64,000 bases of DNA from a bacterium (GTDB taxonomy: Bacteria > Armatimonadota > Fimbriimonadia > Fimbriimonadales > Fimbriimonadaceae), in the NCBI GenBank assembly GCA_013823945.1, contig PNMZ01000001.1:248001-312000 (forward strand), read 5' to 3'. The translations under genes and the position numbers were made by a program. The notes under the pieces were generated by a model. That model had not been told where the DNA came from, did not search any database, and worked only from the letters and a program-made list of their open reading frames with translations. This document shows, one piece after another, positions 49,180 to 53,222 of the stretch. Numbering within the stretch: the stretch's first letter is position 1; each line of letters starts with the position of its first letter.

Positions 49180-49434
49180 TTACTTCTCCTCCGGTGCCTC
49201 GTAAGGCTCACTCTGCTCTGCTTTCATAATCCTCAACTTGATCTCTTCCAAAAATTCGTTCATCACGCCAAACGAACACACCATCAATCCCGGATGAACC
49301 GGATCACGCATCACCAAAAGCTTGTCCCCTGGTTTGATCCCCAATTCTTCCCGCGCCTCCGCTGGAATAACAATCTGCCCCCGTTCACCCACCGTCACGG
49401 AGCCGTAAAAGCACTCATCAAAGTTGATTCCCAT
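49180..49434 (-). CDS. AbrB/SpoVT-type DNA-binding regulator
   Basis: This 84-residue swapped-hairpin regulator starts at ATG 49434, set by GAGG six bases upstream; the frame is open to 49476. The AbrB fold is seen in 'YGSVTVGERGQIVIPAEARE' and 'ELGIKPGDKLLVMRD'. An extra helix and acidic tail follow. It is the first gene of the efflux operon and probably regulates it. An inverted repeat, AAAAGTAT-8 bases-ATACTTTT, just upstream at 49446-49469 is a likely binding site. Such proteins also act as antitoxins, but no toxin gene is next to it. Confidence 0.9.
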   Translation of the reverse strand: MGINFDECFYGSVTVGERGQIVIPAEAREELGIKPGDKLLVMRDPVHPGLMVCSFGVMNEFLEEIKLRIMKAEQSEPYEAPEEK

Positions 49435-49445
49435 GTTAACCTCGC

Positions 49446-49469
49446 AAAAGTATACAAAATCATACTTTT
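49446..49469. promoter_or_regulatory. Inverted repeat, likely operator of the AbrB-type regulator
   Basis: AAAAGTAT (49446-49453) and ATACTTTT (49462-49469) form a perfect 8-bp inverted repeat with an 8-base spacer. A third half-site, TACTTTTG, lies at about 49480-49487. On the minus strand TTGACA (49493-49488) is a good -35 candidate; no convincing -10 was found. The position between two divergent genes would allow control of both. Confidence 0.55.
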
Positions 49470-49524
49470 CATACATAGGTACTTTTGTGTCAACAATAAG
49501 TTAAAATTGATAAAATTCAAAAAC

Positions 49525-50549: not shown

Positions 50550-50957
50550 TTACTCGCCGGCTTCTTCAGTTTGCTTCTGCTCGCGCGGTTCGCGATTCTC
50601 TCGCGGCTCGCGAGCGTCACCCATTGAACGACGGCGCGGGCCAGTATCAACAGCTTCGCGAACGACAAACGGCAACAATGCCATTTCTCGCGCGCTCTTG
50701 ATCGCGTTTGAAATCATCCGCTGCTGCTTTGCTGTGTTTCCGGTCTGGCGAGCGGCCAAAATCTTGCCTCGCTCACTAATAAACTTCTGCAACGTCGCCA
50801 CATCTTTATAGTCCACCGACTCAACTTTGTTCAGAGTCAAGAAGCTAACTTTGCGACGGCGACGGGGTCGGGTGCGACCATCATTGCGGCCCTCCGACAT
50901 GTCCACGGACATTCCGTCCGCAGCGCCATCCAGATTTTCTTTGTCAAATTCGCTCAT
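50550..50957 (-). CDS. rpsR: Ribosomal protein bS18 with extended tails
   Basis: The small-subunit protein S18 core is clear at about residues 33-102: '[20 protein letters not shown]' then '[20 protein letters not shown]' and '[20 protein letters not shown]'. The start at 50957 (AGGATC upstream) gives 135 residues, against about 75 in most bacteria. The surplus is an acidic N-terminal ~30 residues and an Arg/Glu-rich C-terminal ~30 residues ('RREPREQ'-like repeats). It is not next to rpsF, ssb or rplI. An upstream in-frame extension to 51080 is unlikely. Confidence 0.95.
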
Positions 50958-51341
50958 CAAACGATCCTGATCCCACTCGGGAATCGAACCAACATTATGC
51001 CACACACCCTTCATCCATCTTTCACAAGGTCCCCAATGCACCGGGTCCCCGCCAATTTCCCCGCAAAACTGCAACCGCAAAAACCCTCGCTTTCTTGTGC
51101 CCTCGCAAACCCACCAGCTACCAAATCAAACAAAACCGGAACAACCCAATCAGCCCTCCCGAAAGGGAAGGGTCGCCAGAAAGCCCCAATCAGATCCGGG
51201 GGATGCCCTCCTCCAGTGGTCTGAAAAGCAACCCTCCAGCCCAGGGCCATCGCTTGCGATGGCCCCGATTAACTTTGCTCCGTCGCTAGCAATCGCCCCA
51301 ATTAACCTAAAGCCTTCGAGGGCCACTCTCGTCGTTGAGGG
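50958..51341. other. Intergenic region with hairpins and imperfect direct repeats
   Basis: This 384-base gap lies between the clostripain-like gene and rpsR, both on the minus strand. It contains a hairpin GGCCATCG-CTTG-CGATGGCC at 51246-51265 and two related ~27-base segments (GCTTGCGATGGCCCCGATTA and GCTAGCAATCGCCCCAATTA). A third stem, CCCTCCCGAAAGGGAAGGG, lies near 51164. No gene or RNA is convincing. The rpsR promoter is probably near 50970-51000 but I could not place it. Confidence 0.5.
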
Positions 51342-53222
51342 TTAAGGTGCAAGCCCCAGCCACTCATTCCAATTCGTATCCTGAGCTAGCTTCATTCGCT
51401 CATAATCCGTCCGGAATGTCGCATAAGTTGACGTATCGGAAAAGTCAATGGACAAACCGTGGCTGTTCGGCGATTCCGCATTACTGTATTCATAAACCAC
51501 CGCCTGAGCAATCGCCGTCCGCACATTGCTCGCTGCCGTCCGCACAGATTGCGGAATCGTCAAGTCTCCTTCCAACCGGAAGCAGACATCAACAATGTCT
51601 CGATAAACCCGGGTCGAAGCCGGTGAATAGCTCTGAGCGGTGTTTCGAATCGTTTGAATCTGTCCCGCAATCGCCAACCGATGCGTAATCAACTGATCCG
51701 CCAACGCCGAAAGCGATGTTGCGACGTTGTTCAACTGGCTCGACGAAACGACGCTCTGAGTGATTTTACGGAATTGATACAAATTCCCCGGCTGAGCTTG
51801 TTCCTGCATTCCATCTACAAATGCCCGCGCCAAGTTCAAACTCGATGCATTCGGGTTGTCACGGAATTCGTCGAAAATAAGATGATACGGATACCCTTCT
51901 CCCGGCGGACTCTCCTCACTCCCGACCACATAATCTGCAAATCCCCGCACTTCATACGCCACTTCCATCATCTGCATCAGACTCGCATCCCAAGCAATGA
52001 TGTCAAAGTGATTCCCTGCCAAAGCCGCGTCCGTTTCCCAACTCTTAATGGAAGTTCCGTACTGATCATCATAACTAAACGCTCGAGTGGTCAGACTCTC
52101 CGTGCTCCGCTTCCAGCCATTGCCGTGATTCCAAAGAATCAATACATACCGATCTGCCGGATAGTTCTCCTTGCCCCACTCGATGAAATCCGCCAAAGTC
52201 TGGGTACTGCCCATATCCAGAGCATTTCCATTCGCATCGCGAATGTTGTTCTGCACAAGCTCACTCGCAATCGCAGATGTCGTGTCCGGCTTCACCAAAT
52301 ACCGCCGAACACCATCAAAGCTTGACCCACCAAACGCCGATTTTGATTGCTTCCACTGAACCACAAACCGGACATCCGGGTTTCCAGCGACCTGCTCCAT
52401 CTGGTTAACATTAAGCGTACTGAACGAAAACAGATCGTTGGCCGCATTCAGATAGACCAAAACGGTCCACTTGCCTTGTGTCGTTGTCCGCTGGGTGACA
52501 TCAACATCTGCTGACTTGGACAAGCTATGTGCGGTAGAAGCAGCCCTCACCGCCCCTGACCCAACCGTAGTCGCCGTGAATTGTCCCGTCGTCGCTCCAA
52601 CCGTCCCAATTCCTCCCACCACCGACCACCTCAAATCACCAACCGGCAAGAAAACCGCCTGACCACCGTTCAGTCCCGTACTCACGAACTGCGTAATCGA
52701 CTGCTCCTTAACCGAACCAGATCCCGGGACAACTTTCAATTCGGTTGGCGCAATCCCGTACCGTGAAGTCGCAGTATATGTCGTTCCAGCCGTCCCTCCT
52801 GAACACAGGTCAACGACCTGTGTCAGCTCCCCAATCGCCCCCCCTCCCGCATTCGCTTGGTTGTAAATCGTCGCCTTCAAAACGTGAACCCCCGCCGCCA
52901 AATTCGTCAACGTCATATCGCTAAACAAAGTCCCATTTCGGTTCACCGAATCTGATCGCAAAACAAACCCGTCCGCATCAATGATTTGTATCACCTGGCT
53001 CGCGTTTGCTGGCGCACTGCCCCAAACGGTTTGATAACTCACATTCCCCAATCCCGTCGCCACCGAGCACTGACCCGGTGCGAGATTCGAAGAGTCACCT
53101 GAAACCCCACCCCCTCCACCTCCACAACCCAACAGAATTCCAATCCCCGCCACCAAGAGGCCGTTCAGCAGTCCTCGACTCCAAGAAAATGATTTCACCT
53201 CTAAGCTGACGATTATTCCCAT
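51342..53222 (-). CDS. Clostripain-family (peptidase C11) lipoprotein, nucleophile Cys replaced by Ser
   Basis: This 626-residue exported protein has a lipobox 'GIGILLGC' followed by a glycine run. Residues ~50-245 hold Ig-like domains ('VSIT'-type repeats, 'GTVGATTGQFTATTVGSGAV'). The C11 fold begins at 'KWTVLVYLNAANDLFSFS'. The catalytic His is in 'YVLILWNHGNGWKRS' (about 366). The segment that normally reads 'DACLM...E' reads 'IIAWDASLMQMMEVAYEV', with Ser414 (AGT) where the nucleophile Cys is expected. The later 'YVVGSEESPPGEGYPYH' is normal. It may be a serine variant or an inactive binding protein. Confidence 0.88.
   Translation of the reverse strand: MGIIVSLEVKSFSWSRGLLNGLLVAGIGILLGCGGGGGGVSGDSSNLAPGQCSVATGLGNVSYQTVWGSAPANASQVIQIIDADGFVLRSDSVNRNGTLFSDMTLTNLAAGVHVLKATIYNQANAGGGAIGELTQVVDLCSGGTAGTTYTATSRYGIAPTELKVVPGSGSVKEQSITQFVSTGLNGGQAVFLPVGDLRWSVVGGIGTVGATTGQFTATTVGSGAVRAASTAHSLSKSADVDVTQRTTTQGKWTVLVYLNAANDLFSFSTLNVNQMEQVAGNPDVRFVVQWKQSKSAFGGSSFDGVRRYLVKPDTTSAIASELVQNNIRDANGNALDMGSTQTLADFIEWGKENYPADRYVLILWNHGNGWKRSTESLTTRAFSYDDQYGTSIKSWETDAALAGNHFDIIAWDASLMQMMEVAYEVRGFADYVVGSEESPPGEGYPYHLIFDEFRDNPNASSLNLARAFVDGMQEQAQPGNLYQFRKITQSVVSSSQLNNVATSLSALADQLITHRLAIAGQIQTIRNTAQSYSPASTRVYRDIVDVCFRLEGDLTIPQSVRTAASNVRTAIAQAVVYEYSNAESPNSHGLSIDFSDTSTYATFRTDYERMKLAQDTNWNEWLGLAP

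Follow-up and report, generated by a model that had tools for sequence, protein, structure and literature searches.

The C11 lipoprotein gene and its neighborhood

The gene considered in this study lies in a window of 64,000 nucleotides (contig PNMZ01000001.1 of assembly GCA_013823945.1, forward-strand positions 248,001 to 312,000) from a member of the Fimbriimonadaceae, phylum Armatimonadota; coordinates are those of the window. The ORF occupies positions 51342..53222 of the minus strand, starts with an ATG at 53222, and encodes a C11-family lipoprotein of 626 amino acids followed by a stop codon; all features described below are on the same strand. The signal sequence with the lipobox, recognized in the sequence by a regular expression, covers residues 1-33 (53124..53222), with Cys33 as the lipid site, and residues 1-42 have pLDDT below 50 in the AlphaFold model, the mean over the model being 87.7. 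Further along the protein are an N-terminal beta domain delineated from the model strands (residues from about 57 to 138, 52809..53054), with Cys52 and Cys140 close to its ends, an Ig-like (BIG-type) domain identified by fold matches with Z of 8-11.5 (residues 156-245, 52488..52757), and the C11 peptidase domain, seen by both Pfam and fold matches (residues 251-621, 51360..52472). The Pfam match (PF03415, Peptidase_C11) spans residues 256-621 and scores 168.3 bits versus a cut-off of 25.8. The score with the NCBIfam equivalog model of clostripain, TIGR02806, is 75.2 bits, under the cut-off of 550 bits, and hence the protein is not clostripain itself. This is the single C11 gene of the source genome. 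Its product is 98% identical to a relative in Armatimonadetes bacterium Uphvl-Ar1, and other close matches are titled Fimbriimonadaceae.

In many Fimbriimonadaceae loci the C11 gene is situated between the GGDEF-rplU-rpmA genes and rpsR, beyond which are AbrB-like, TolC, and HlyD genes. This conserved neighborhood indicates vertical descent, and none of the genes neighboring the Fimbriimonadaceae C11 loci points to a function. The rpsR ORF of the window (50550-51080, minus strand), encoding ribosomal protein S18, has long N- and C-terminal extensions, and its true start is unsure. A gene for a MazE/AbrB-like DNA-binding protein (49180-49476, minus strand) is kept in 13 of the 25 related loci as a neighbor of the genes for TolC and HlyD, and its product may control the efflux genes.

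The active site of the predicted peptidase consists of four elements. The WNHGNGW motif (residues 364-370, 52113..52133), evident in the sequence and the homologue rows, contains the catalytic His366. It is followed by a variable linker (residues 371-380, 52083..52112), whose last residue, Arg380, is aligned with Lys147, the self-cleavage position of PmC11. The WDASLM motif (residues 411-416, 51975..51992) contains the S1 residue Asp412 and Ser414, encoded by AGT at 51981-51983, at the nucleophile position. Finally, the substrate loop SEESPPGEG (residues 435-443, 51894..51920) includes Ser438-Pro439-Pro440, which are coupled to Ser414 in the column comparison and the alignment. A gap-free phmmer alignment sets Ser414 on Cys179 of PmC11, so the nucleophile column is correctly identified; the same stretch equates Asp412 with Asp177, Ser438 with Glu203, Pro439 with Thr204, Pro440 with Met205, and Glu442 with Asp207 (residue numbering and the S1-pocket region with Thr204, Met205, and Asp207 from PMC4850288). 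In the structural alignment, residue 381 of the model coincides with Ala148 of PmC11, the first residue after the self-cleavage break, which places Arg380 at the position of Lys147.

The preliminary description of this gene, made from the DNA alone, reported serine in place of the C11 nucleophile with an intact His motif and a codon one base away from a cysteine codon, and all three statements proved correct. A nucleophilic cysteine elsewhere is excluded, as the protein has cysteines at positions 33, 52, 140, and 547 only, the last one outside the nucleophile motif. The remark about a lack of cysteine in the same description was thus wrong in detail, since cysteine is absent from the nucleophile position only. 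By the features used in MEROPS for family C11, the sequence has the His in HG, an S1 Asp at the second position ahead of the nucleophile, and a basic residue in the self-cleavage position, with Ser414 instead of the catalytic Cys of D(A/S)C; because of this serine at the Cys179 position, we file the protein as a C11 homologue and not as a cysteine peptidase. The AlphaFold model has the caspase-like alpha/beta/alpha fold with the C11 C-terminal domain, and its superposition on active clostripain (9cip_B; Z 39.8, 2.1 A over 350 residues) counts in favor of an enzymatic role of the serine form.

Distribution of serine and cysteine at position 414

Pfam C11 genes were found in 219 of the 291 genomes of the phylum. 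Our sample comprises 191 different ORFs from 209 loci, its Armatimonadota part being drawn from among the matches listed. Within this part (157 rows from 146 genomes, among the matches listed) residue 414 is serine in 129 cases, cysteine in 27, and proline in one; Ala, Gly, Thr, and Asn do not occur at this position in these 157 rows. The preliminary description had proposed an alignment of homologues from related genomes, and here serine proved to be conserved as a deep clade. His366 is retained in 156 of the same 157 listed rows, and the only row without it is the proline copy, the second C11 copy of genome G213. The pattern indicates that only a hydroxyl or a thiol is accepted at position 414 while His366 is present; the His-less copy has also lost the serine. 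Among 34 further database rows, 32 have cysteine, and the two with serine are titled Fimbriimonadia and Armatimonadetes. Altogether, C11 copies with serine occur in 150 Armatimonadota genomes, and 19 of the 26 family-level groups sampled include the serine form. Outside the phylum we found no serine form among 32 rows of other organisms, all of which have cysteine, nor in four plasmid-borne C11 genes, from Bacillota, Cyanobacteriota, Actinomycetota, and Pseudomonadota, the records examined being four of 60.

The 129 serine codons are divided between the two families, 69 AGY and 60 TCN, which indicates that the residue is kept rather than a codon. Switching between the AGY and TCN families is not raised at position 414 (eight switches versus 5-11 at six other conserved serines); a special route between these families via cysteine is thus unsupported, and we count the observation against the serine-enzyme reading. 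Asp412 and His366 are present in all 131 serine rows. Position 380 is arginine in 123 and lysine in one of these rows and lysine or arginine in 56 of 59 cysteine rows, with the linker preceding it varying freely. The residue immediately before the nucleophile position, 413, is mostly alanine (100 of the 131 serine rows) and is cysteine in 22. A neighboring cysteine as a substitute nucleophile was rejected, given this low proportion and the location of Cys547 outside the motif.

It had also been suggested that the loss of the nucleophilic cysteine suits the oxidizing cell surface. With a crude lipobox regular expression and contig-edge rows left out, 114 of 126 serine rows versus 20 of 58 cysteine rows score, which would fit this idea. 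However, 18 of the 27 Armatimonadota cysteine rows also score, including those of G134, G131, G128, and G143 from the family of the window itself, and the serine protein of the window has four cysteines of its own, all of which makes the argument weak.

Several other loci deserve mention. The second copy of G213 (L146, ORF from 2658) lacks the His, the nucleophile, and the SPP loop, reading WGTGGGW and DAPF at the respective motifs; judged by these losses, it is likely a real pseudopeptidase, and it adjoins an intact serine copy. The Elusimicrobia GWA2_62_23 contig carries four consecutive cysteine-type C11 ORFs (L066, 2659-8351), and loci L076 and L079 contain two each. The C11 proteins of families f40-f45 (loci L249-L275 except L254), remote from the main family, have GHG and DCCYGGS-like motifs and cysteine in every case. 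A contig titled Methanoregulaceae archaeon SJ84 (L047/L094) contains a C11 gene of the Fimbriimonadaceae type and corresponds to a contig of the Armatimonadota genome G018; this record is a mislabelled or mixed MAG.

Coupling to the substrate loop and direction of change

In a column-by-column comparison of 106 serine and 48 cysteine rows, the columns diverging most strongly after 414 itself are 439 (0.93) and 438 (0.79), the next one reaching 0.48. Positions 438-440 read SPP in 130 of 131 serine rows, the remaining one being SEP, versus one of 59 cysteine rows; the other cysteine rows have TEP, NTP, LVP, PEP, and similar triplets. As a test, the DNA pattern of the loop alone was searched against the 291 Armatimonadota genomes, with the reversed pattern as a control. 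The pattern occurs in 133 genomes, and its reversed form in none; no occurrence was seen in the viral contigs searched. Of 35 loop-pattern stretches sampled among previously unread matches, all 35 have the pattern and all 35 have the serine nucleophile; two of them are repeats (L211 of L057 and L239 of L052), leaving 33 of 33 new proteins with serine. The 30 loci taken from 34 weakly matching genomes yielded 28 cysteine forms, none of them with SPP, and two serine forms, with SPP in G164 and SEP in G246.

The exceptions to the coupling are the serine rows of G124 (L171) and G246 (L246), both with SEP, and the cysteine row of G125 (L161) with SPP. The two former read D[AV]SE at the nucleophile motif and SQLSEP at the loop, and the latter has SQLSPP; the three may represent a third line of C11. 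We count these exceptions against the serine-enzyme reading.

A quick tree of 156 rows, built with the active-site columns excluded, needs eight state changes. In a careful tree of 41 rows, from which both the active-site and the loop columns were excluded, there are at least five changes between serine and cysteine, each of them required by a well supported branch. A topology with all cysteine forms on one side was rejected by the AU test on this 41-row set, the rows having been picked by hand and the test specified once the first tree was known. Cysteine rows are nested within the serine clade in families f1 (G134, G131, and G128 together, and the first copy of G132), f12 (G092), and f21 (G191, sister to the serine form of G192). 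All of them lack Pro439; His366, the aspartate of the S1 pocket, and the basic residue in the self-cleavage position are retained. Because the surrounding families f2, f3, and f5 have serine, at least the f1 cases are, by parsimony, returns from serine to cysteine. Moreover, the cysteine-form gene of G134 (L051) is located beside the same GGDEF, rplU, and rpmA genes, so the two forms occupy the same locus. In G132 two C11 copies stand in tandem (L184, ORFs from 1015 and 2831), one with cysteine and LTP and the other with serine and SPP, and this is a natural pair for comparison.

Independent pairs were counted on a quick tree of 90 rows, a set without the long branches L083, L104, and L074, the proline copy, and serine rows more than 58% identical to a kept row. 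Pro439 tracks the nucleophile in a mean of 4.8 of five supported pairs, with a mean of 0.0 pairs in the opposite direction. The median p is 0.0625, five pairs being too few to reach 0.05, and this too is counted against the serine-enzyme reading.

A putative serine peptidase of clan CD

The presence of Ser414 across much of the phylum together with the matching loop change suggests a natural switch of a protease from cysteine to serine. With the S1 Asp and the self-cleavage residue retained, the pattern is most simply read as a functional serine peptidase, and we lean toward a surface peptidase that activates itself, is specific for Arg/Lys, and uses serine as the nucleophile. It would be an endopeptidase of the caspase fold in which the catalytic cysteine was replaced by serine and the S1 loop was redesigned to match. 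The lipoprotein would be exported and anchored via Cys33, and a cut after Arg380 would open the active site. His366 would then act as the base for Ser414, which would attack the bond after an arginine or lysine held by Asp412, while the SPP loop may adjust the pocket or the position of the nucleophile so that a hydroxyl works in place of a thiol. A third residue raising the basicity of His366 would be expected in a serine enzyme; Asp263 and Asp336, both commoner in serine forms than in cysteine forms, are candidates. Rare natural exchanges of cysteine for serine with limited loss are described for clan CA in the accessible part of PMC9825947, and a handicapped serine form of TEV protease is improvable by further changes, as outlined in PMC4576821. 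By analogy, we conjecture that in the SPP loop nature may have made a compensating change of the kind that improves TEV-Ser.

Several published observations are unfavorable to a serine enzyme. The distance between Cys and His in clostripain, 5.2-5.6 A, is long for a hydrogen bond between Ser and His (excerpt of PMC11296011), and serine triads, with few exceptions, depend on a His in the N-epsilon configuration and on an Asp or Glu (PMC9825947, same part). The C136S variant of PNT1, a C11 member of clan CD, is inactive and does not rescue trypanosomes, according to the sections of PMC4850289 consulted, and TbMCA4, with a natural serine and an adjacent cysteine, showed no cleavage following R, D, N, or K (PMC3058108, in part). 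The latter two cases speak for a substrate-binding pseudopeptidase, in which the fold and the S1 pocket would bind basic peptides or a surface partner, Ser414 forming hydrogen bonds without catalysis and the cysteine relatives being the enzymes; the conserved Asp412 and the SPP loop suit this role as well, and serine-bearing orthocaspases are regarded as pseudo-enzymes in the portion of PMC6426788 available. We nevertheless hold such a role, the main alternative, to be rather unlikely. His366 is invariant among the serine rows and the self-cleavage residue persists in 124 of 131; serine is replaced by cysteine alone, except in the one copy that also lost the His; and reversions to cysteine with a full dyad would hardly arise from a long-dead enzyme. 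By the definition of pseudo-orthocaspases as proteins whose catalytic residues are lost without compensation, the cysteine is lost here, and the His and other active-site residues are kept.

A use of the serine for acyl transfer other than proteolysis, be it the ligation of peptides, esterase activity, or the anchoring of surface proteins, seems improbable to us. It would agree with the transamidation performed by GPI8, another clan CD member (PMC4850289, in part), with the changed reaction of silicateins following the exchange of Cys for Ser (PMC9825947, in part), and with a surface lipoprotein carrying an Ig-like domain; however, no neighboring gene points that way, and the basic self-cleavage residue and the S1 Asp indicate the usual specificity. 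As for a point change or sequencing error confined to the window copy, the AGT codon, a single base from TGT, would allow it, but the common occurrence of serine in the relatives, including the 98% identical one, refutes this explanation and makes its chance negligible. Of the interpretations offered in the preliminary description, the conservation pattern agrees better with the serine-nucleophile variant than with a dead enzyme, and the surface-oxidation argument carries little weight.

At scarcely better than even chances, clan CD holds natural serine peptidases and is thus of mixed type, and the several passages between Cys and Ser in Armatimonadota, each way and with the Pro439 switch, are a natural record of nucleophile exchange. 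The His/Cys dyad is stated for clan CD peptidases in the part of PMC4357240 consulted, and all C11 proteases are said to show it in that of PMC10315481; serine forms of family C14 are treated as inactive (PMC6426788 and PMC3058108, both in part), and in MEROPS a clan of mixed catalytic type is designated by the letter P (PMC3058108, in part). Our literature search, thin on subscription journals, found no paper on a serine form of C11, a MEROPS listing being possible, and none combining "clostripain" and "Armatimonad". If active, the serine lineage would place clan CD among the mixed-type clans. The phylum-wide serine form with its coupled loop would be an exception to the His/Cys dyad, testable with natural Ser/Cys pairs such as the G132 tandem. 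It bears on how enzymes can exchange one nucleophile for another with no inactive stage in between, and on the requirement of serine triads for an N-epsilon His and an acid. If inactive, this is a very large and old pseudopeptidase family, still of interest. In practice, C11 searches demanding D(A/S)C, such as that for eukaryotic sequences in the consulted sections of PMC4850289, discard the serine proteins.

The protein resembles clostripain and PmC11 (MEROPS C11, clan CD) in the fold, the HGxGW His, the D-x-nucleophile motif, the S1 Asp, and the basic self-cleavage residue, and differs from them in the serine in place of the catalytic cysteine, the N-terminal Ig-like domain, and the lipid anchor; where PmC11 has Glu203-Thr204-Met205 in the S1 loop, the window protein has SPP. 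The clan CD fold and a serine at the nucleophile position are shared with pseudo-orthocaspases and with T. brucei TbMCA1 and TbMCA4 of family C14 (PMC3058108 and PMC6426788, in part). TbMCA1 and TbMCA4 have a cysteine beside the serine (PMC3058108, in part), as do the DCSLM forms among our C11 rows, whereas the residue before the serine in C11 is mostly alanine and the serine is accompanied by the loop change. The pseudo-orthocaspases described in the available portion of PMC6426788 have lost the His (Tyr-Ser), while the C11 serine forms keep it. Natural nucleophile exchange in a cysteine peptidase fold is also known from the papain-like C1 proteins SERA5, congopain, EnCL, and silicateins; these have the clan CA fold, and the accessible part of PMC9825947 describes neither repeated exchange nor a coupled loop for them. 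Finally, the PA clan and the laboratory-evolved TEV-Ser offer a model of how a protease can move from one of these nucleophiles to the other by way of compensating changes, although the fold there is unrelated and the exchange stems from laboratory evolution or from deep divergence (PMC4576821, in part).
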